A stretch of DNA of 64,000 nt from Simplicispira psychrophila DSM 11588 (GTDB lineage Bacteria; Pseudomonadota; Gammaproteobacteria; Burkholderiales; Burkholderiaceae_C). Both the position numbers and the translations under genes were made by a program. The DNA is taken from positions 124,001 to 188,000 of the forward strand of contig NZ_JHYS01000002.1 of NCBI RefSeq assembly GCF_000688255.1. The letters are read 5' to 3'. Positions 1 through 56,070 of the stretch are shown piece by piece (position 1 is the first letter of the stretch; each line of letters opens with the position of its first letter). A model generated the notes under the pieces. That model saw nothing but the letters and a program-made list of their open reading frames with translations, was not told the origin of the DNA and searched no databases.

Positions 1-49
1 TGTCCAGGTGCTCGGCGAGTTGGGCGATGGTGGCGGCGGAGAGGTTCAT
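1..49 (-). CDS. Start of a gene cut by the window edge, probably 4-oxalocrotonate decarboxylase (DmpH)
   Basis: Only 16 codons are visible, reading MNLSAATIAQLAEHLD from an ATG at 49, with AGGAC upstream as a ribosome binding site. XylI/DmpH-type decarboxylases begin in a similar way (a short helix ending in LAEHIE or LAQHLE). In dmp/aph operons dmpH follows dmpG, and dmpG is the next pathway gene here, separated only by the chemoreceptor gene. The identification rests mainly on this position; a hydratase/decarboxylase paralogue cannot be excluded from so few residues. Confidence 0.5.
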   Translation of the reverse strand, partial: MNLSAATIAQLAEHLD

Positions 50-120
50 GGGGAAGTCCTGGTCTTGAAAAGGAAAAAAAGAGGGGCGGCCGATGTCGCC
101 ATGGCTGCCAGTGCGGCCAT

Positions 121-1569
121 TCAATGGCTTTGAAATAACTTGCCCATGCTCTGGCGCCAGCCCCCGGAGGAGGCCGCCGATGGGTCTGGGGTACTCAAGT
201 GCGACAGGGTGTTTTTGACCAGGTCGTAGGCCGGGCGCACTTGCAGGGGCACTTTGGCGCGCACCTGGTCAAAGCGCTCGGCTTTGGCCAACGCCAACAC
301 TTCGCCGCGTACGCCGCGATAGGCTTTCAATGCCGCAGCAAATTGCTGCGCCGGCGCCGCGGGTGCGTGACCACGCGGGCTGCGCAGGTAGCGCGCCCAA
401 GTGCTGTCTATCAAGGTGTCGAGTTGGCCAATGCGCTCGACCACCGTCACGATGTCGCGGTAGGCATCGGCATTCATGACGAGGATGTTGCAGGCGCGCA
501 GCTCTTCGATGCAGTCCGCCAGCACATCGACCTCGGCACGCCCGGGCAGCAACTGCGAGGTTTCGCGCTTGAGTTGGCCTATCAGGCCTTGCACGGTGCG
601 CAACTGCCCGTTGCTGGTGCCCAGCCATTCCACCGATTGCTGCGCCGCCGCCGACAGGGCTTGGGCGTTTTGCACCAGGCGCTGACTCAAGCCTCCTTGG
701 GTTTGCGCGGCCACGGCCAGGTCGTTGGCAGCGTTGAGCGTGCGGCCCGAGCGCGCGCGGATGTCCGCCAGCGCCGCACCGGTTTCGCGTGTGCGCTCAA
801 TGCCGCCGTGTATGTCTTGCAGCACCTGCTGCAAATAGCTGTCGGCAGCCACGGTGCTGGTGGTGATGCCAGAAATCATCTGGCGGATTTGCACCGTGGC
901 GTCATTGGTGCGCGTGGACAGCTTGCGCACCTCTTGGGCCACCACGGTAAAGCCGCGGCCCTGCTCCCCGGCACGCGCAGCCTCGATGGCGGCGTTGAGC
1001 GACAGCAGATTGGTCTGCATGGCGACTTTCTGGATCAGGTCAACGATGTTCTCAATCTCGTCTTTGTGGCGCATGACCTCGCGAAAGCGCTCTTCCAAAC
1101 CTTGTGCCGATGGCTCCAGCGCGGCAATGCGCTCCATGGTCTGGTTCAGCAGGCCATCGCCATGCACCGCCAGTTCGTGCATCGAATGAACCTCGTTGCG
1201 GGTGATGGCAGCCGACTGCACCATCGACGCAACGCTGGCATCCAGCGCGCCCACACCCTCAAGCAACTGCCCCAGAACAGACGACTGCTCGCGCGAGGCG
1301 CTGACCACCCGGGTAAACGACGACATCATGCTGGCGTTGTTCACGGTGACATCCAGGGCGTGTTTGTCCAGCCGCCCCAAGGCGCCAGCGTCTGCGCTGC
1401 CACCCCACCACCGGCGCCCGCTGCGGGCGCTGCCGACCACCCCGGCCAGAGCCATCAGGGTCAGGCACAAAAGAGCTGCCTCGTGCAACCCGTCCCAAGG
1501 GACAGACCACGCGGGCCATGCCAGTGCCGCCAAAGACAGCACCAAGGTCGAACTGAGCAGGGCGCCCAT
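121..1569 (-). CDS. Methyl-accepting chemotaxis protein with C-terminal helical domain, inside the meta operon
   Basis: A 482-residue chemoreceptor. Residues 1-46 form two hydrophobic segments with almost no loop, so there is no periplasmic ligand-binding domain. The cytoplasmic signalling domain follows, with the hairpin tip around residues 175-220 (IAMQTNLL-like [20 protein letters not shown], then EQGRGF and VAQEVRKLS), which contacts CheA/CheW. After about residue 345 comes a roughly 110-residue helical stretch (from [19 protein letters not shown] to the KNTLSHL region) resembling a 4HB_MCP bundle, here placed behind the signalling domain. It starts 14 bp after dmpG and ends 71 bp before the next gene, so it is probably co-transcribed with the phenol genes. 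A role in chemotaxis to phenol or its metabolites is inferred from context only. Confidence 0.85.
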
Positions 1570-1583
1570 GTGCAGTTTTCGCC

Positions 1584-2618
1584 TTAGGCCGCCAGCAGAC
1601 CGCGTGCGCGCGCCATGGTCATGGCGGTGTCTTCAATCATGTCTTCCTGGCCGCCGACCATGCCCCGGCGCCCCATCTCGACCAGGATGTCGCGCGCGGG
1701 CACGCCGTATTTTTTCTGGGCGCGCTTGGCAAACAGCAAGAAACTGCCGTACACGCCGGCATAACCCAAGGTGAGCGCGTCGCGGTCGATGCGGATCGGA
1801 AAGTCCATGATCGGCACCACCAAGTCTTCAGCCACGTCTTGGATCTTGAAGACGTCCACGCCGGTCTCGATACCCATCAGGTCGCAGACAGCGATAAAGA
1901 CTTCCATCGGCGTGTTGCCCGCACCAGCGCCGAGGCCAGCCGCAGCGGCATCGATGCGATTGGCGCCGACTTCAATCGCCGCCAGGCTGTTGGCCACGCC
2001 CATCGCCAAGTTATGGTGGCCGTGAAAGCCCAGCTCGGTCTCGGGTTTGAGGGCAGCGCGCACCGCGCCCAGGCGGCTCTTGACGGTCTCGGGCAGCAGG
2101 TGGCCGGCGGAGTCGGTGACGTAGATGCAGTTGGCACCGTAGCCTTCCATCAGCTTGGCTTGCTTGACCAGGCCTTCGGGGCTGTTCATGTGCGCCATCA
2201 TCAAAAAGCCCACCGTGTCCATGTCCATCTTGCGGGCCATGGTGATGTGCTGCTCAGAGACGTCGGCCTCGGTGCAGTGGGTCGCCACGCGGATGGTGGT
2301 GACGCCCAAGCCGTGTGCCATCTTCAGATGATCGACAGTCCCGATACCAGGCAACAGCAGGGCAGAGACTTTGGCCTGCTTCATCAGCGGAATCACAGCG
2401 CCGAGGTATTCCTCGTCGGTGTGCGCCGGGAAACCATAGTTGACCGAACTGCCGCCCAAGCCGTCACCGTGCGTGACTTCGATCAGCGGAATGCCAGCGG
2501 CGTCCAGGCCGCAGGCGATGGACTTCATTTGCTCCAGCGTCATCAGGTGGCGCTTGGGGTGCATGCCGTCGCGCAACGTCATGTCGTGGACGGTGATTTT
2601 TTTGCCTTTGAGTGTCAT
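1584..2618 (-). CDS. dmpG: 4-hydroxy-2-oxovalerate aldolase
   Basis: Class II pyruvate aldolase (344 residues) that splits 4-hydroxy-2-oxovalerate into pyruvate and acetaldehyde and, in the known DmpFG complex, channels acetaldehyde to DmpF. The HMGL-like barrel shows the N-terminal [11 protein letters not shown] motif (metal-binding Asp17) and the metal-binding GFHGHHN motif (His199, His201), followed by the glycine-rich [10 protein letters not shown] segment. The length equals DmpG/BphI. The start is set by AAGGAAA before the ATG. It lies 17 bp after dmpF. Confidence 0.97.
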
Positions 2619-2635
2619 GGTGTGTTTCCTTGTCT

Positions 2636-3571
2636 TTAAGCGGCTACGGCCACGGGGACGATGACGGGAACGAGCGTCAAAGCGCCGCTCAAGATTTCTT
2701 CGGCAAACATCTCGGCGGTGCGGGCCGCCGCCGCCGTCATGATGTCCAAGTTGCCAGCGTATTTGGGCAGGTAGTCGCCCAGGCCTTCAACTTCCATGAA
2801 GACGCTGACGCGGTTGCCGTCAAACACCGGGCCGTTGACCAGGCGGTAGCCGGGCACATATTTTTGTACCTCTTGGATCATGTCGTGGATCGACTGGGTG
2901 ATGGCGGCTTGGTCGGGCTCGGTCTCGGTCAGGCAGTGCACCGTGTCGCGCATCATCATCGGCGGCTCGGCCGGGTTGATGATGATGATGGCCTTGCCTT
3001 TTTTGGCGCCGCCGACTTTTTCAACGGCACCGGCGGTGGTGCGGGTGAATTCGTCAATGTTCTTGCGCGTGCCGGGGCCAGCGGATTTGGACGACACCGT
3101 GGCGACGATTTCGCCGTAGGCCACCGGCTGGATGCGGCTGATGGCGAACACCATCGGAATCGTCGCCTGACCACCACAAGTGACCATGTTGACGTTCATC
3201 TCACGCTGGCCGACGTGTTGCTTCAAGTTGACCGGCGGCACGCAGAACGGGCCAATCGCAGCGGGTGTCAGGTCGATCATCATCGCGCCCTGCTCGTTCA
3301 CTTTGCGTGAGTTTTCGGCATGGACGTAGGCGCTGGTGGCGTCAAAAACGATCTGTACGCCGTCGGCTTTCATGTGCGGAATGAGGCCATCCACACCGTC
3401 GGCGGTGGTCTTGATACCCATCTCGCGCGCACGCTTCAAGCCGTCCGATTCGGGGTCGATGCCAACCATCCAGACCGGCTCCAGCACCGCGCTGCGTTGC
3501 AGTTTGGCCAGCAAATCGGTGCCGATGTTGCCGGGGCCGATGAGGGCGCATTTGATTTTTTTGGTGGTCAT
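2636..3571 (-). CDS. dmpF: Acetaldehyde dehydrogenase (acylating)
   Basis: Converts acetaldehyde, NAD+ and CoA into acetyl-CoA as partner of the aldolase DmpG. The 311-residue protein has the NAD-binding fold at its start ([13 protein letters not shown], residues 8-20) and the catalytic cysteine at 132 in the motif [12 protein letters not shown], the same position as in DmpF of Pseudomonas. The middle region contains the dimer segment with ISRI and [17 protein letters not shown]. It sits between dmpE and dmpG with 17-27 bp gaps, as part of one transcript. Confidence 0.97.
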
Positions 3572-5977: not shown

Positions 5978-6451
5978 TCAGAGGTCAAGCCCCAGAACGC
6001 GCAAGCCAGCGCGGGCAATGATTTCATCTTGGGCTTCACTGCCGCCCGAGACGCCGATGCCGCCAATGCGCACACCGCCTTCAACTATCGGCAAGCCGCC
6101 ACCAAAGGCGACAAAGCGCGGGCGCAGCACGATGCCTTCGCGCACCGCCGCCGAGTGCGTCGCCAGCACCTCGGGCCATTGCCCGGTCGGCAGGCCAAAG
6201 CTGGCCGCCGTGTAGGCCTTGTCGATGGCAATGTCGATGGAGTGCAGCGGTGCGCCAGGCATACGCACAAAGGCCGCCAGCACACCCGCCGCGTCCACCA
6301 ACGCAATGTTGACGGGCATGCCCAAGTCGCTGGCTGCCTGCACCGCTGCCGCTGCCGCTTGCAACGCGGGGGCCGCCGCAATGACGCGCTGCACCTGGCT
6401 GTGCACAAAAGTGGCGGATAGGGCGGAAACGGAGGAAGTCGAATCAGACAT
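5978..6451 (-). CDS. GlcG/HbpS-like protein (DUF336 family)
   Basis: A 157-residue member of the GlcG/HbpS family: MPVNIALVDAAGVLAAFVRM, then SIDIAIDKAYTAASFG, and a glycine-rich C-terminal half (FGGGLPIVEGGVRIGGIGVSG). HbpS-type members bind haem, and genes of this family recur in aromatic and glycolate catabolic operons, usually without known function. It lies 39 bp upstream of dmpC and 14 bp after the MetA-like gene, with GGAG before the ATG. A helper role in the pathway is inferred from position only. Confidence 0.8.
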   Translation of the reverse strand: MSDSTSSVSALSATFVHSQVQRVIAAAPALQAAAAAVQAASDLGMPVNIALVDAAGVLAAFVRMPGAPLHSIDIAIDKAYTAASFGLPTGQWPEVLATHSAAVREGIVLRPRFVAFGGGLPIVEGGVRIGGIGVSGGSEAQDEIIARAGLRVLGLDL

Positions 6452-6465
6452 GGACGTGCTCCGGC

Positions 6466-7371
6466 TTAAAACGCTTTGAGCAGCGTCATGCGCAGCAGCG
6501 TGCCTTTGGGCTGTGGCCCGGTGCCGGCTTCAGCGCGCAGCTCTTTGTAGAGGGCGCCCTTGAGCACCGTGCCGGGAGCGAGCGGGTACGCCACTTCAGC
6601 ACCCAGCGCGTGGCGTGAGGACTTGTTGGTGCTGGCGAAAGGGCCGCTGTCGTTGCTGGTTTGCCATTGGCTGTAACCGACGATGCCGGCCTGCACCGGG
6701 CCAAAGGTTTTTCCCAAGCCCCATTCGATGGTGGCCTGGTTGCCATGGCGAAAACCGTTGTCCATCTTGCCGTTGCGCTCAAAGCGCATCAGGGCCGAGC
6801 CGGAAATGCTTTTCGCGCTGTCAAAGTAGTAGGTCATGCCCCCCGTCAGCATGGTGCTTTTGAAGCCCTTGCCGGGGGATGCCGGGCGACTGGTGCTGCC
6901 GTTGTCCAGCCACACACCAGCAGCGGCCACGGCGTCCCACTGCGTGCCGTGCCAACCGAGTACCAGCGGGCCTAGATAGACATCGCCCACGCCGGTGTGG
7001 CGGTCAGTAATAGCCGCGGCACCAATGTCCAGCGAGGTGCGCAGCACTGGCACGATGGCTTCAACGCCGTAGTCGGCGCCCAACAGTTTTTGTCCGGTCA
7101 TCCAGACAAAGCGGTTGGCCAGCGCCGTCACGCTGCCGGTGTTGGAGCCAGGCAGATTGCTGCTGGAGCCAGGGGCGCGAAAATGGTTGATGTCGTAGTG
7201 CACCAGGTAGCCCAGGTAATAAAAACCGGGCGGTGGCACGCTGGAGCCTTGAATGCCTTCCACGCCGGGCACATAGTGGCCCTCAGCCTGCGCCGCCAGG
7301 GGGGCCAGCCCCCCGAGCAGCGCCAGCACGGCGGCGGCAGCAAAATGTCGTTGCATAGTTTTTTCTTTCAT
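6466..7371 (-). CDS. Outer-membrane MetA-type phenol degradation protein
   Basis: Matches the family annotated as MetA-pathway of phenol degradation (SphA/SalD-like), outer-membrane beta-barrels thought to help hydrophobic substrates enter. A signal peptide ends at LAAQA before EGHYVPGVEG. The rest alternates hydrophobic strands and turns, including GDVYLGPLVLGWHG and GMTYYFDSAKSISG, and ends in Phe (LLKAF), typical of barrel insertion. An ATG at 7356 is the best start by its upstream AAAGAA; the ATG at 7371 adds five residues. It sits between dmpB and the GlcG-like gene. Confidence 0.85.
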   Translation of the reverse strand: MKEKTMQRHFAAAAVLALLGGLAPLAAQAEGHYVPGVEGIQGSSVPPPGFYYLGYLVHYDINHFRAPGSSSNLPGSNTGSVTALANRFVWMTGQKLLGADYGVEAIVPVLRTSLDIGAAAITDRHTGVGDVYLGPLVLGWHGTQWDAVAAAGVWLDNGSTSRPASPGKGFKSTMLTGGMTYYFDSAKSISGSALMRFERNGKMDNGFRHGNQATIEWGLGKTFGPVQAGIVGYSQWQTSNDSGPFASTNKSSRHALGAEVAYPLAPGTVLKGALYKELRAEAGTGPQPKGTLLRMTLLKAF

Positions 7372-7410
7372 GCGATGCGTCAAAAAAAGCGGGCGGAGGT
7401 GCTCAGGCGA

Positions 7411-9919: not shown

Positions 9920-10276
9920 TTAGCTGAAAGAACCTTCGATGCCAGTCAGGCCTGGGGTGCGAAAGCGGATCGCATCCTTGTGGATCAGGCCGTTGCCTTC
10001 CAGGGTTTTGGCCGGGTCGGGCGTCCAGGGCTGGCCGGACTTGAACCACTCCACCGCATCCCAGTCGATGCGCGCAAAGTCCGGGTGCGCGCCATACACG
10101 CCGGGCAAAACGGCTGCGGTCAGGGCACCAAAGGGCGTATCGGCCGGCAGCGGCAGGGCCACCGGCGAGCAGAACATCAGATGGTCTTCCCAGCCAATGA
10201 ACAGCAGCGGTGCCGGAAAATTGGCACGCACGTCCTTGGCCGGAAATTTGTAGGGCTTGAGGGCTTTGACGCTCAT
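9920..10276 (-). CDS. dmpO: Phenol hydroxylase component P4
   Basis: Small subunit (118 residues) of the oxygenase assembly, recognised by MSVKALKPYKFPAKDVRANF, by LLFIGWEDHLMFCSPVALPLP, and by the C-terminal region with WDAVEWFKSGQPW. It overlaps the dmpN stop by 4 bases (ATGA), suggesting coupled translation and fixing the start. Confidence 0.95.
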   Translation of the reverse strand: MSVKALKPYKFPAKDVRANFPAPLLFIGWEDHLMFCSPVALPLPADTPFGALTAAVLPGVYGAHPDFARIDWDAVEWFKSGQPWTPDPAKTLEGNGLIHKDAIRFRTPGLTGIEGSFS

Positions 10277-11883
10277 GGCTTGTCTCCTGCTTTCTCCGTA
10301 GCGGTTGCGGCGGCAGCAGCAGCGGCGCCAGGGATCGGTGGCAGCTCTTCACCGCGCCAAGCGGCAAAGTTTTTCTGGTCTTCCGAGCCTTCAAAGTCGA
10401 AGTTGTCGCGGCCCACTTCCATCTCGTACCAATCGAGCACGGCCATCAGCGGGTCAAACCCTTCAGCGGTCGGATCAACACCAGGCTTGAAGCAGTTGCC
10501 CTGGTAAATCTGCTGCACCGGCAGCCAGGCCTGGATGTATTTTTCGGGCTCGTGGTCAAAGATACCCTTGCAGCCGTCACTGCAGAAGTGGTACTTCTCG
10601 CCCTCAAACTCGCTTTCGCGGTAGCAAATCTTGGTCGCATCGCCCGGCTCGGTAAAGCCCATCGGGATCTGGCAGGTGGTGCACAGCATCGGCAGCGTGT
10701 TGTTATAGAAACGCCGGCCTTCTTCGTGCTCTTTGCGGTAGTGCTCCAGGCGGGGACGGTAGTGCTTGTCGAAGGTGTCGGGGTATTTTTCCGACAGCCA
10801 CTGCATTTCTTCTTCCTTGGGCACCCAGGTGTGAAAGGGCGCCGCAGCGGTGTAGTTATAGAAAATATTCCACGCCTGGTGGCTGATGTGATCCTTGCCT
10901 TCGCACGCCATCTTCCAGCCCAGTGGCTCGCGGATGCCGTAGCGCGCCAAGTCCCGGAACAGCGCACCGCCGTTTTCTTCGGCATACATCTCCCACGCCT
11001 CTTTCCAGCTCATCACGCGCTTGGGCAGCATGTAGTCCTGCATCATCGCCACCAGCGTCAGCACGCGGTAGCCGCGCCAGAACCACTTGTCGATCCAGCC
11101 TTGCACGATCGGTACGTTGCCCGGGTCTTGCTCCAGCATGAACTTGATGCACTCAATGCCCAGCGTCATGTGGCGCGACTCGTCCGACTGTGCCGAGAAG
11201 CCAAAGGTGACGGTGGACAGGTCGCCGTTGTGCGCCGCGCCCGACATGAAGGGCACAAACAGCAAGTTGGTCAGCACGTATTCAAACGAGAAGCTGACGG
11301 CGGTCAGAAACTCGAACGGGCCAGCGGTCAGCGCGTCTTCAAAGAACGACTTGGGCACCGACAGGAACCACACGCGGTCAAACCAATGGCTGCCGTTGTG
11401 CATGCCGTTGAAGTACTTGTTGTAGTGCGACAGGGCGTGGGTTTCGGTCTGGAAGTGGCGCAGCTCATCTACCGACTGCATCTGCGCCGCAACGCGTGCG
11501 CCGGGGCCGGTGAAGTGGCGACCGGCATGGGCAAAGCCACGGTGGGCGTAGTACTCCAGCGGCACCACGCCTTGGATGAACAGTTTCAGCGCGTTGATGT
11601 AGCGCGCATCTGACACCCCCAACTGGCCATTGTTTTGCGCAAAGGCCTCGATCACGGCGTAGAGTTTTTTCTCTTTTTCGCCCTGGTACTTCCAGTAGGA
11701 CTCCATCGTCAGGCGGAACGGGTCTTCCCACTTGTCCCAGTCGTGGATCTTGATGCCTTCGTATTTATCGTAGGGGAACACTTTGTCCATCGGCTGGTAG
11801 GTGGTGTCCCAACCCAGGCCGCGCGTCATGGCGGTGTAGCGGTCTTTCAGACCCAATTTCTTTTTGCTAACAGGGGCGTCCAT
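10273..11883 (-). CDS. dmpN: Phenol hydroxylase alpha (catalytic) component P3
   Basis: Large diiron subunit that inserts oxygen into phenol to give catechol. From the ATG at 11883, carboxylate and histidine ligands fall at Glu110 (PLEYYAHRG), Glu140/His143 (DELRHF), Glu201 (FEYVLTN) and Glu235/His238 (SDESRHM), the complete set of bacterial multicomponent monooxygenases. Near residues 400-450 is a YHS-like region (CTTCQIPMGF, KYHFCSDGCKGIFDHEPEKY). Two ATGs lie in tandem; the second has better spacing from AAGGAG and matches the DmpN start (MDxPxxKKKLGLKDRY). Confidence 0.97.
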   Translation of the reverse strand: MDAPVSKKKLGLKDRYTAMTRGLGWDTTYQPMDKVFPYDKYEGIKIHDWDKWEDPFRLTMESYWKYQGEKEKKLYAVIEAFAQNNGQLGVSDARYINALKLFIQGVVPLEYYAHRGFAHAGRHFTGPGARVAAQMQSVDELRHFQTETHALSHYNKYFNGMHNGSHWFDRVWFLSVPKSFFEDALTAGPFEFLTAVSFSFEYVLTNLLFVPFMSGAAHNGDLSTVTFGFSAQSDESRHMTLGIECIKFMLEQDPGNVPIVQGWIDKWFWRGYRVLTLVAMMQDYMLPKRVMSWKEAWEMYAEENGGALFRDLARYGIREPLGWKMACEGKDHISHQAWNIFYNYTAAAPFHTWVPKEEEMQWLSEKYPDTFDKHYRPRLEHYRKEHEEGRRFYNNTLPMLCTTCQIPMGFTEPGDATKICYRESEFEGEKYHFCSDGCKGIFDHEPEKYIQAWLPVQQIYQGNCFKPGVDPTAEGFDPLMAVLDWYEMEVGRDNFDFEGSEDQKNFAAWRGEELPPIPGAAAAAAATATEKAGDKP

Positions 11884-13537: not shown

Positions 13538-13555
13538 CTTGCAGGGAGCGTGCCA
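13538..13555 (-). promoter_or_regulatory. Sigma-54 promoter of the phenol operon
   Basis: Read on the minus strand: TGGCACGCTCCCTGCAAG. The GG and GC elements are exactly 10 bp apart, as needed for a -24/-12 promoter, and the -24 half is a perfect TGGCAC. The predicted transcription start is near 13530, about 27 bp before dmpK. Confidence 0.93.
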
Positions 13556-13733: not shown

Positions 13734-13792
13734 CCTACCGCTACAGAAAAGTGCGCATTTGATGAAATTTTTGGTTTTAGGGGTGATTGCGT

Positions 13793-15529
13793 ATGGCGCC
13801 AATTTCATTTTTTATCGATAGTTGCACCATGACGCCTCCCTCGCTCCCTGCCCTGCCATCTGATGCCGACTTGCGTCGACTGGTGCACTTTTCCAGCGGC
13901 GACGGCCGCATCTGGCTGTCCGGGCAGCGCATGTTGCTGGTACACGCCGCCGCGCTGCAGGCGCTGCGGCGCGAGTTGATGGCCACGCTGGGGCCACAAA
14001 ACACGCGCTGCCTGTTGCTGCGCGCCGGGTACGCCTCGGGCGAGGGCGATGCGCTGCTGGCGCGCCAAGTGCGTCCTCATGCCTCGCTGTTTGATGTGTT
14101 TGCCGTCGGCCCGCAGCTGCACATGCTTGAAGGCGCAGTACAGGTCACGCCGCAGGTGTTTGAGGTGGATGAGGCGGCGGGACACTTTCGCGGTGTCTTT
14201 CGCTGGGATCACAGCTGGGAAGCCGAAGTGCATACGCGCGACTTTGGCGTGCAATCCGAGCCGGTGTGCTGGATGCTGTTGGGTTATGCCTCGGGCTACA
14301 CCAGCGCCTTTTTTGGTCGCCCGACGCTGTACAAGGAAACGCAGTGCGCTGGCGCCGGGCCCAGCCACTGCCTGATTGAGGGCCGCTTTGCCGAAGAATG
14401 GCCCGACGGTGATGCCATGGCGCGCGACTACGATCCCGACTCGATGCTGGTACGCCTGGACGAGCTGAATTCACAGGTGCAAGCGCTGCGTACGCAATTG
14501 CAGCCCAGCGCCGCCAGCACCACACTGATCGGCAATTCACCCGCCTTCAATCAGACCCTGGATTTACTGCGCATGGCGGCGCCGACCAATGTGACGGTGC
14601 TGCTGACGGGAGAAACCGGCGTCGGCAAAGAGCGCGTGGCGCGCGCGCTGCACGCCCTGAGTACGCGCGCGGACAAGCCGTTTATCGCCGTCAACTGCGC
14701 CGCGCTGCCGGCCGAACTGATCGAGAGCGAATTGTTTGGTGCCGAGAAAGGGGCTTTCACCGGCGCCACCAGCGCGCGGCCCGGGCGTTTTGAGCGCGCC
14801 CACGGCGGCACGCTGCTGCTCGACGAGCTGGGCGAGCTGCCGCTGGCGGCACAGGCCAAGCTGCTGCGCGTGCTGCAAGAGGGCGAGATCGAGCGCTTGG
14901 GCAGCGCGCAAACGCGCAAGGTGGATGTACGCGTCATCGCCGCCACCAATATCGACCTAGAACAGGCCGTGGCCGAAGGGCGTTTTCGCCGCGACCTGCT
15001 GTACCGCCTGAACGTCTACCCGATCCGCATTCCGCCGCTGCGCGAGCGCGTGGACGACATCGAGCCGCTGGCGCGCCACCTGTTGGCGCAATACGCCGCC
15101 ACGCACGGCAAACGTGCGCAGGGCTTCACCGAACGGGCATTGAGCGCCCTGCGCGAACACGACTGGCCGGGCAATGTGCGCGAGCTGGAGAATCTGATCG
15201 AGCGCGGGCTCATCCTGACCCCACCGGGGGCACTGATTGATGCGCCGATGCTGTTTCCGCAGCAGCACCATCACACCAGCGCCGCCAGCACCACCGTCAA
15301 CGCCGCTGGCGCGCTGGAATCCGCAGCGCCTGCCGACCCGGCGCAGGCCAGCGCCCTGTACGACACCCTGCAGCGCAGCGGCCTGTCATTGGAAGTGCTG
15401 GAAGACACGCTGATCCGTGAAGCCGTGCAGCGTGCCAGTGGCAACCTGGCCGCCGCCGCCCGCGCCCTGGGCCTGACGCGGCCCCAGTTAAGTTATCGCC
15501 TGGCGCGCCTGCAAGAGCGTGCCCGCTGA
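13793..15529 (+). CDS. dmpR: DmpR/MopR-type sigma-54-dependent phenol sensor-activator
   Basis: 578 residues: N-terminal activator/V4R sensor domain, a linker near 215-240, AAA+ domain about 245-480 (Walker A GETGVGKE at 273-280, sigma-54 contact loop GAFTGA at 320-325) and a Fis-type helix-turn-helix at the end. Sensor residues match MopR with a constant offset of four: zinc ligands C159, E182, C185, C193 and phenol-contacting H110 and W138. This strongly suggests direct sensing of phenol-type effectors. The ATG at 13793 is preceded by AGGGGTGA; 13829 is an alternative start. It is transcribed divergently from the operon it should activate. Confidence 0.95.
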
Positions 15530-54213: not shown

Positions 54214-56070
54214 ATGAAAATTAATCTCCCGGTGACCGGGCAGGAACAACGCTTTCCTGCCGAAAAGAACATGGTCACCAAGACCAATACCAAGGGCATC
54301 ATTACTTTTGCCAATAAAGATTTTGTTGAGATCAGTGGCTTCGCGGAAGAAGAACTGATCGGAAAAAATCATAATCTGATTCGGCATCCAGACATGCCGC
54401 CGATTGCTTTTGAAATCATGTGGAAAACCTTGAAGCGCGGTTTTCCATGGCACGGCATCGTTAAAAACCGTTGTAAAAATGGTGACCACTATTGGGTCGA
54501 TGCCCGCATTGTGCCGATCAAGAAAAATGGTGAAATTACCGGCTATATGTCGGTGCGCTCATGCCCTGCGCGCGAGGATGTGGCCGCCGCAGAAGCGACG
54601 TACAAAAGCGCGCTGGCCCGCCCAGAAATCATCAAGGAAAAAATTGATGCAAACTGGAAAAAGCACCTTTCGATTAAAAACGGTATTCCACTGTGGATTT
54701 TATTTGTCACCCTGCTGATGATTGGCGGTGGCATTCTGGGTATTACCGGCCTGAATATGTCCAAAGCAGATATCCAGGCGATGTACCACGAGGAGATGGT
54801 GCCGGTACAAGCTATTCAGCGCATGAATTTTCTGATGGCCGACAACCGTGCACAGGTGGCGCTGGCGCTGAATTTCAAATTTGGCATCCACTCGGATGCG
54901 GTGCTGAGCGACGCCTCCAGCAACAATTACGTTCAGCACATTGCCCAGAACAAGAACGAACTGAACCAGATCTGGGCCAATTACATTGGCAAAGTCAAAG
55001 ACCCGAAAGAAAAGCAACTCGCCGACAACTACATCGAGGCCCGGATGCGTTATGTCAACGAAGGGCTACTACCCGCCAGCGAGGCGATTGAGGCCGAAGA
55101 TTACCTGCAAGCCCAGCGGGTGTTTTTCACCCGTCTCAATCCCCTGTACGACACCGCCAATACCCGCGCCTCCACTTTGCTGAACTACCTGTTTGAGCGT
55201 GGCAACGCCAAGCTGGTGGACACCACGGCCCGAGGTGATCTGATTTTCCGCTTGGCAGTGGCCGGAATCAGCCTCAGTTGCCTGGTGCTGGTCGTAGCAG
55301 GCTTCTTTTTCTTTCGCATCACCGCCCGCCCCCTCGAAAAAGCCGTGCTGGCGCTGGAAGACATTGCCGAGGGCAACTTGTCCGACCACATCGAGCCTTC
55401 AGGCTATGGCGAGCCAGGGCGCGTCATGAACGCGGTCATGGTCACGCAGATGCACCTCAAAGTGATGCTGCACGAAATCCGGCAATCGTCAGACTCCATC
55501 CATCAGCAGTGCCACAACCTCAACCAGGTGATGATGAACTTGGCCGAACACTCGGACGAGCAGCAAGACCGCATCCACCAGACCGTCGATGCCGTCAACG
55601 CCTCGCGCGCCGCCATGGCCACTATCAGCAGCCACATGGACGCTCTGCTGGACACCGTTCACGCCGACGACGATGACGCGCTGGCGCCGGTGCCTCCCCC
55701 GGCGCTACAGAGTCAGGCGTCCCCAGCGTTCGCACCGACGTTTGAACTGATGCCGGCTGAATTGTTGGCGGTGTTTGGCGATAGCCTATCCCAGCCCCCA
55801 TCCCCCGCGGCCGCCGCGCTGCCTGAAGCTTTCACCACAACAGCGTTCGCATCCCAGCCCGCACCCACCGCGCTGCGGCAACAATTGCAAACCACTGCCA
55901 ACGCCGCACGCAGCCAAGCCCTGGGGATAAAAGAAATGTCTGGCCAACTCCAGCAAGTGGCCCGGCTGATTGTGCAAAACAGCGAAGACGTCCAAGGGGC
56001 CTGGGCCGCCTCCCAGCAACTGCAGCAAACTGCCCGCGAGCTGGACGAACTGGTGCAGTATTTCGACTGA
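54214..56070 (+). CDS. Aer-like PAS/4HB/HAMP receptor lacking the chemotaxis tip
   Basis: 618 residues. N-terminal Aer-type PAS domain (KNMVTKTNTKGIITFANKDF, NLIRHPDMPPIAFEIMWKTL, KNRCKNGDHYWVDARIVPIK), a membrane helix near 168-188, a periplasmic four-helix bundle to about 345, a second membrane helix, then HAMP (RPLEKAVLALEDIAEGNLSD). The expected cytoplasmic hairpin with QTNxLALNAAVEAARAG is missing; instead helices are interrupted by an acidic and Pro/Ala-rich linker (DDDDALAPVPPP) and the C-terminus returns to MCP-like helix (ELDELVQYFD). Probably redox-sensing through FAD, with unknown output. Confidence 0.85.
   Translation: MKINLPVTGQEQRFPAEKNMVTKTNTKGIITFANKDFVEISGFAEEELIGKNHNLIRHPDMPPIAFEIMWKTLKRGFPWHGIVKNRCKNGDHYWVDARIVPIKKNGEITGYMSVRSCPAREDVAAAEATYKSALARPEIIKEKIDANWKKHLSIKNGIPLWILFVTLLMIGGGILGITGLNMSKADIQAMYHEEMVPVQAIQRMNFLMADNRAQVALALNFKFGIHSDAVLSDASSNNYVQHIAQNKNELNQIWANYIGKVKDPKEKQLADNYIEARMRYVNEGLLPASEAIEAEDYLQAQRVFFTRLNPLYDTANTRASTLLNYLFERGNAKLVDTTARGDLIFRLAVAGISLSCLVLVVAGFFFFRITARPLEKAVLALEDIAEGNLSDHIEPSGYGEPGRVMNAVMVTQMHLKVMLHEIRQSSDSIHQQCHNLNQVMMNLAEHSDEQQDRIHQTVDAVNASRAAMATISSHMDALLDTVHADDDDALAPVPPPALQSQASPAFAPTFELMPAELLAVFGDSLSQPPSPAAAALPEAFTTTAFASQPAPTALRQQLQTTANAARSQALGIKEMSGQLQQVARLIVQNSEDVQGAWAASQQLQQTARELDELVQYFD

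Follow-up and report, generated by a model that had tools for sequence, protein, structure and literature searches.

A chemoreceptor gene within the phenol meta-cleavage operon of Simplicispira psychrophila DSM 11588 encodes a protein in which a four-helix bundle (4HB) follows the signaling domain, and the gene order dmpG, receptor, dmpH is found in eight of the nine closest loci, including the window (the whole stretch of 64,000 nucleotides analyzed here). We see an even chance that this protein is a dedicated, pathway-coupled chemoreceptor of the operon, acting as a cytosolic sensor for metabolism-dependent taxis. The observation made in the first-pass annotation, that of a receptor with reversed domain order in a meta-cleavage operon, is confirmed, and its interpretation, that the receptor is induced with the pathway and senses a cytosolic metabolite or energy state, is partly supported.

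Receptor architecture

The open reading frame of the receptor is present exactly as first described (Table 1), and the MCPsignal match (PF00015; E 3.4e-34, 118.6 bits against a cut-off of 34.6) identifies the encoded protein as a chemoreceptor. The conserved CheA/CheW-binding tip is present, with 17 of the 21 columns at 191-211 invariant across all 11 aligned proteins, and nine CheW-domain matches were found in the genome; the receptor would be expected to signal to CheA and steer swimming. HAMP was absent among the 10 Pfam families returned at E values up to 10 for the 482-aa receptor, and TarH, a related Tar-type bundle, scored below its own cut-off. A large plus-strand open reading frame overlapping the receptor gene (199..1587) was treated as a GC-rich shadow frame.

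In the full-length AlphaFold2 model, which was built with five sequences and has a mean pLDDT of 69.9, helices are placed at residues 2-16 and 26-49, followed by a helical region at 59-340 and helices at 346-365, 374-396, 404-429, and 433-459. A fold search with this model returned receptor signaling domains as the best matches, with generic coiled coils lower. Pfam and AlphaFold2 together bear out the order of a hydrophobic N-terminus, a signaling hairpin, and a 4HB-like bundle. The cytosolic C-terminus that had been proposed is also supported, because the signaling domain must face the cytosol; and because both ends of a chemoreceptor signaling hairpin lie near the membrane, the C-terminal bundle is predicted to be cytosolic and close to the end of the hairpin that faces the membrane.

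The membrane hairpin is the weakest point of the confirmed observation. Of the two N-terminal segments in the window receptor, the first has a hydropathy of 1.58, just below the line of 1.6 used for hydrophobic segments, and the second reaches 1.84; residues 13-33 and 43-64 have pLDDT values under 50 in the full-length model. Among the 11 proteins, two N-terminal segments pass the line in four, one in six, and none in one (L031). Because hydropathy varies in this way, a membrane anchor is likely and a hairpin only probable, its form not being conserved.

Table 1. Features of the receptor gene and its operon (window coordinates)
Feature	Position	Strand	Basis or remark
Chemoreceptor gene, 482 aa	121..1569	-	Open reading frame and translation
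Hydrophobic N-terminus, probable membrane hairpin, residues about 2-49	1423..1566	-	Poorly conserved, low model confidence
Conserved base of N-terminal signaling helix, residues 66-95	1285..1374	-	Mean pair identity 0.76 in eight dmp-linked proteins; usual HAMP position
MCPsignal domain, residues 137-303	661..1161	-	Pfam; intact CheA/CheW-binding tip (segment 161-235)
Conserved base of C-terminal signaling helix, residues 312-334	568..636	-	Mean pair identity 0.78 in eight dmp-linked proteins
C-terminal four-helix bundle, residues 342-459 (4HB_MCP_1 at 354-460)	193..546	-	Pfam, AlphaFold2, structural match; predicted cytosolic
4HB helix 1, residues 346-368	466..534	-	Highest mean pair identity of 13 segments compared (0.79)
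dmpG, 4-hydroxy-2-oxovalerate aldolase	1584..2618	-	TIGR03217, 553.8 bits, cut-off 286; 14 nt upstream of receptor
Start of dmpH, 2-oxo-3-hexenedioate decarboxylase	1..49	-	TIGR03218, 475.1 bits, cut-off 350.55; 71 nt downstream of receptor
DmpR/XylR-type sigma-54 activator	13787..15529	+	Divergent from operon
Sigma-54 -24/-12-like element	13540..13555	-	One mismatch; between dmpR-type gene and phenol hydroxylase genes, operon strand

Identity and fold of the C-terminal domain

The C-terminal domain is identified as a 4HB, as its profile match, its alignment to ordinary N-terminal 4HBs, and its predicted fold agree. The match to 4HB_MCP_1 (PF12729; E 9.6e-8, 32.2 bits against a cut-off of 27) covers positions 58-164 of the 181 in the profile, and the first 57 positions, where the first membrane helix usually lies, are unmatched. 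Domains of this family usually lie between TM1 and TM2, outside the membrane; here, the bundle follows the signaling domain instead. The bundle had been placed at residues 345-470, which is right to within a few residues of the AlphaFold2 helices, and the 4HB profile comparison proposed beforehand in the first-pass annotation returned 4HB_MCP_1 rather than an unrelated helical domain. The same family was matched in all eight dmp-linked proteins (E 1.4e-4 or better), in six of them above the curated cut-off; two proteins (L019 with 21.9 bits and L020 with 26.4 bits) fell below it, as did those of genomes G675 and G886.

Modeled alone with AlphaFold2, the domain forms four helices at residues 342-366, 370-396, 404-429, and 433-459 (pLDDT 89.2, pTM 0.83). 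When 999 chains were realigned against this model, the top solved fold was the ligand-binding domain of Comamonas testosteroni MCP2201 (Z 17.3, rmsd 2.8, 128 aligned), with lower matches to the receptor model YvaQ (Z 15.1, rank 5), the best designed bundle (14.3), Vc1313 (13.6), and PcaY_PP (12.2); bundles under a Z of about 13 are distrusted. Because mostly helical models without a clear match typically peak at a Z of 14, the lead of MCP2201 is meaningful but modest. Foldseek with the domain alone returned nothing at an E of 0.001 or below, though MCP2201 ranked first, and the domain profile found nothing convincing among PDB chains (best E 0.096). The ordinary 4HB of G506, searched the same way against PDB chains, gave no match, and one 4HB receptor of the window's own genome, used as the query, reached MCP2201. 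At the sequence level, the C-terminal domain aligns with the N-terminal 4HBs of ordinary receptors in G506, G403, and G440, which are the three hits read of five weak ones.

A reading of the domain as CZB, the C-terminal cytosolic zinc-binding sensor of receptors with His/Cys zinc ligands, was rejected: no CZB row was present among the 10 Pfam families (E up to 10, with most above 0.1 filtered), and no invariant His was found in alignment columns 340-461.

Conservation and a possible ligand pocket

Across the eight dmp-linked proteins, mean pair identity was 0.38 for residues 1-50, 0.53 and 0.61 for the adaptation regions, and 0.76 for the tip, with the two hairpin bases at similarly high values (Table 1); within the bundle, it was 0.79 for helix 1 and 0.44, 0.55, and 0.55 for helices 2 to 4. 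Conservation in helix 1 is on a par with that in the CheA/CheW-binding tip, a level that the membrane part does not reach. Such strong conservation of helix 1 and of the hairpin bases it would contact is consistent with a coupled sensor, whereas the variable N-terminus argues against sensing at that end. Sensing of aromatics or of membrane solvent stress through the hydrophobic N-terminus, which would leave the 4HB as a relic, is accordingly the least probable of the alternatives weighed and a distant one: phenols do partition into membranes, and the N-terminus is the sole part expected to touch both the membrane and the outside, yet this segment is the variable one, no part of it passes the hydropathy line in L031, and it is helix 1 of the 4HB that is kept.

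Residues E355, E356, R358, N361, N366, R379, D384, D388, Y417, R418, R421, R437, R445, and Y448 are invariant in all 11 proteins, and C360 is kept in 10 of the 11. In MCP2201, as described in PMC10735184, malate and citrate bind within the monomer through hydrogen bonds from R135, Y138, R142, Y172, and helix-2 threonines, with Y138 and R142 binding the ligand carboxylate. A MAFFT alignment set long gaps around the MCP2201 row; the residue register was hence derived from helix ends and gapless counting on a printed MCP2201 stretch. By this counting, Y138/R142 would correspond to the invariant Y417/R421 of the window receptor, and most of the pocket would be lost, with R81, T104, T105, T108, R135, and Y172 replaced by C360, L383, D384, I387, L414, and V451. 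Because the Y-x-x-x-R pair also occurs in the three ordinary N-terminal 4HBs, it may be structural. With Y417/R421 kept and the other polar contacts differing, an acidic ligand would be expected, yet not citrate or malate.

The same residues bear on a reading in which the bundle is a protein-docking or dimer-stabilizing module, so that the receptor either responds to some indirect state, be it redox, proton motive force, or a bound pathway enzyme such as DmpFG, or has no role beyond shaping the array. Conserved helix 1 positions 356, 359, and 363 match, by counting, the MCP2201 dimer interface residues V77, A80, and A84 given in PMC10735184, the loss of most known pocket residues points the same way, and C360 leaves room for redox sensing. 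We nevertheless hold this reading to be rather unlikely, though the likeliest of the alternatives; against it, without being decisive, stand the spread of invariant charged and polar residues over all four helices and the ligand-binding nature of the closest solved fold.

Operon setting and regulation

The placement of the receptor between dmpG and dmpH is borne out by the TIGR03217 and TIGR03218 neighbors, by the short gaps on both sides (Table 1), and by the recurrence of this order; dmpH starts at window position 49 and lies mostly beyond the window edge. The same-strand genes upstream encode a phenol hydroxylase subunit, a Fer2 protein, an extradiol-dioxygenase-type protein, a Phenol_MetA_deg protein, an HbpS-like protein, and an aldehyde dehydrogenase, followed by dmpE, dmpF, and dmpG. 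The genes which we take to be dmpM, dmpN, dmpO, and dmpP were assigned by BLAST among the loci. The biggest other intergenic gap computed was 102 nt (dmpC-dmpE), besides 1077 nt between dmpO and dmpQ, which contain a frame reading as dmpP. The genes for the HbpS-like, haem-degrading-type protein (5978-6451, minus strand) and the Phenol_MetA_deg protein (6466-7383, minus strand) belong to the operon; among the relatives read, most have an HbpS-like gene as well, and some a MetA-like gene.

A sigma-54-like element lies between the divergent dmpR-type gene and the phenol hydroxylase genes. The scan used a -24/-12 pattern and gave 17 matches at up to two mismatches against 23.6 expected; because this count is no more than chance, the element rests on its position. 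Within window positions 1-2700, no sigma-70 promoter-like site was returned, and the two terminator-like sites (2.4 expected) both lie in coding sequence, with none in the 14-nt gap between dmpG and the receptor. The sequence scan thus revealed no transcript boundary before the gene, and the receptor is probably co-transcribed with the dmp operon. The close gene spacing, the upstream DmpR-type gene, and the sigma-54-like site all count in favor of a pathway-coupled sensor.

Recurrence and distribution of the receptor gene

Close relatives were defined as having at least 50% identity in the C-terminal region, and each genome was counted once (L015 duplicates L019 and L017 duplicates L020, each on the same contig), giving nine loci: the window, Xylophilus (L019), an Acidovorax MAG (L022), G283 (L016), Comamonas SCN 67-35 (L020), G270 (L018), Comamonas isolate 62 (L021), G1052 (L051), and G640 (L031). 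The first eight all have the order dmpG, receptor, dmpH, with dmpH of the seven other than the window 76-86% identical to that of the window; because this order recurs in seven other genomes, it is not chance. In L016, a gene for a Peripla_BP_6 substrate-binding protein (10267-11511, plus strand) lies between the receptor and dmpH, and the gaps at the other receptor loci compared are too small for a gene of this type. In the ninth locus, G640, the receptor is 55% identical over the C-terminal region and lies away from dmp genes: none was found inside the 20 kb around it, DmpG is elsewhere in the genome, and the neighbors, read from translations, are of the housekeeping type, resembling bamC, dapA, and cysI/cysG.

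Distant relatives of the window receptor were found in G675 and G886. In G675, the receptor gene (product 34% identical to the window protein) is flanked by a Usp gene and a DmpR-type gene; dmpQ-, B-, M-, N-, and O-like genes follow at a distance of about 2 to 7 kb and a DmpG at about 19 kb. Three of the four genomes of that genus in the sample have this receptor. In G886, the receptor follows a Phenol_MetA_deg-like gene (35% identical to that of the window) and a DSBA-type gene, and precedes a glutathione transferase.

Of the 299 family genomes, 70 gave a DmpG match, 68 of these over the cut-off; five have the receptor, and all five have DmpG. Within the stretches read around 19 other DmpG loci, which were hand-picked and mostly high-scoring, there was no receptor hit; in eight of them, dmpG and dmpH directly neighbor each other, with -4 to +16 nt between them, and one of the eight (L064) belongs to the window's own genus. 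A dmpFGH tree built from 20 operons (seven with the receptor and 13 of the 19 receptor-less loci, with L021 omitted because its dmpG is cut) split the receptor-bearing operons into two groups, with the receptor-less L066 inside one of them (support 0.79). The grouping of L066 (G196) against L018, L020, and L051 suggests a recent gene loss. The receptor gene seems to be an optional module with a set position, possibly gained or lost more than once. A tblastn search of 72,556 plasmid records with the whole protein matched 4355, none with one place covering 80% of the query; the best 20 of the 4355 end at query residue 364 or earlier, and the one match opened is annotated as a methyl-accepting chemotaxis protein.

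This optional distribution is what would be expected of an ordinary chemoreceptor carried into the operon by happenstance, without a pathway-specific role, and it includes the adjacent dmpG and dmpH of the eight loci such as L064, the receptor-less L066 among receptor-bearing operons, and the G640 receptor apart from dmp genes. The repeated use of the same slot in eight of the nine closest loci, an independent association with a dmpR-type gene in another family, and the retention of 49-64% identity over the whole protein by four relatives make such an origin unlikely. For the pathway-coupled reading, the points that count against it are that the gene is absent from most dmp operons examined, that G640 carries it elsewhere, that most MCP2201 pocket residues are lost, that the 4HB score falls below the curated cut-off in some of the proteins, and that Foldseek gave the domain no match at an E of 0.001 or below.

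Rarity of the domain order

The window's genome holds 24 MCPsignal matches and 15 4HB_MCP_1 matches (14 over the cut-off); by position and frame, 12 of the latter lie upstream of MCPsignal, two in frames without MCPsignal, and one downstream, so that only the window receptor, one of 24, has a 4HB after the signaling domain. With the C-terminal region as the query and the window genome counted each time, hits were obtained in five of 299 family, eight of 399 order, and five of 369 class genomes, a query that recovers only relatives of the window's domain and hence gives no census of C-terminal 4HBs. Five of the seven other order hits were read, with the weak hits G545 and G636 outside this reading: G640 and G675 have the C-terminal domain, and G506, G403, and G440 have ordinary N-terminal 4HBs. 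In the class hits G886, G756, G979, and G989, the domain is at the C-terminus in the match read, which for G989 was the first match and by BLAST only (the second, L040, lay outside the comparison); HAMP is also present in G756, just above the cut-off, and in G979, just below it.

Therefore, the order described as unusual in the first-pass annotation is indeed rare in its own genome but is not unique, as C-terminal 4HBs are found in other lineages; judged from sequence, it is rare in the sampled genomes, yet present in more than one receptor type. The HAMP-bearing C-terminal-4HB receptors seen in further Gammaproteobacteria hint that inside-out 4HB receptors form a wider class. The C-terminal-4HB receptors L042, L043, and L044, from genomes without a DmpG match over the cut-off, would form a separate group, with HAMP detected by Pfam in L042 and near the cut-off in L043. 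Elsewhere in the window (54214-56070, plus strand), a 618-aa frame has PAS, TarH/4HB, and a weak HAMP match and no MCPsignal by Pfam; it may be a cut-short PAS-4HB receptor or one with another output domain.

Proposed role of the receptor

In the proposed mechanism, the receptor would be made when the DmpR-type activator turns the operon on, and its hydrophobic N-terminus would serve only as an anchor. A 4HB of the normally periplasmic type, joined to the C-terminal end of the signaling hairpin, would lie in the cytosol just beneath the membrane, where it would most likely bind a small acidic pathway metabolite, either a 2-oxo acid or a dicarboxylate. The products around the dmpG/dmpH slot of the pathway are 2-oxo acids, and candidate ligands would be 4-oxalocrotonate, 2-oxopent-4-enoate, and pyruvate. 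A change in ligand would be passed through the conserved hairpin base to CheA/CheW, and the cell would then swim by internal pathway flux, a form of metabolism-dependent taxis. The most specific version of this scheme, in which a 4HB moved inside onto the C-terminal end of a HAMP-less receptor binds a meta-cleavage intermediate directly and provides pathway-specific, flux-reading taxis, is put forward tentatively, with odds somewhat short of even.

If this is true, a 4HB sensor works from the C-terminal, cytosolic side, with no transmembrane helix or HAMP before the signaling bundle, and the receptor may let the cell steer by how well phenol is digested. A receptor inside the operon with a recognizable cytosolic binding domain would offer a specific molecule and gene to test, and the question of what the cell senses in metabolism-driven phenol taxis would become testable with one gene and one domain.

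Comparison with known systems

A search of the open-access literature by title and abstract start, with subscription papers mostly outside it, found, among the papers listed, neither a C-terminal 4HB receptor nor an MCP between dmpG and dmpH, nor the conservation pattern described above; this is weak evidence that the architecture is undescribed. The linkage of chemoreceptors to aromatic-degradation clusters is already known from PMC6449761 and PMC2907700. In the former, the genes listed together for the AphT-regulated operon of Azoarcus sp. BH72 are those of a universal stress protein, a chemotaxis transducer, and LapR, a listing that the order of Usp gene, C-terminal-4HB receptor, and DmpR-type gene in G675 resembles. 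On this resemblance, the G675 receptor gene is probably the same as or near the Azoarcus transducer gene, although that listing gives the latter no domain order, and the G675 gene is adjacent to the regulator gene instead of occupying the dmpG-dmpH slot. In PMC2907700, MCP VIMSS581523 of Dechloromonas aromatica is listed beside a tautomerase and an MhpE aldolase and is proposed to give taxis to aromatics; like the window receptor, it lies in a meta-cleavage gene cluster, but it has 532 aa against 482 aa here, the two being compared by description only.

A cytosolic receptor for a product of metabolism has a precedent in MtpA, the formaldehyde-taxis receptor of Methylobacterium aquaticum described in PMC10613068. 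MtpA likewise has no periplasmic sensor and a taxis driven by a metabolic product, and differs in being without a transmembrane region and without a recognized sensor domain.

Metabolism-dependent taxis to aromatics has been reported in Comamonas and Pseudomonas, and the internal signal for taxis to phenol-type compounds has been attributed to general energy sensing of the Aer type or to TCA acids, according to PMC6600141. In the same source, taxis to (methyl)phenols is ascribed to energy-taxis receptors of the Aer/Aer2 type in Pseudomonas; these share cytosolic sensing and metabolism-dependent taxis to phenols with the proposed role of the window receptor, and differ in using a PAS/FAD sensor for general energy taxis that is not pathway-specific. 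MCP2201, the periplasmic 4HB receptor of Comamonas testosteroni for TCA-cycle acids, is described there as triggering metabolism-dependent taxis to aromatics; its bundle is periplasmic, whereas that of the window receptor follows the signaling domain and differs in most pocket residues.
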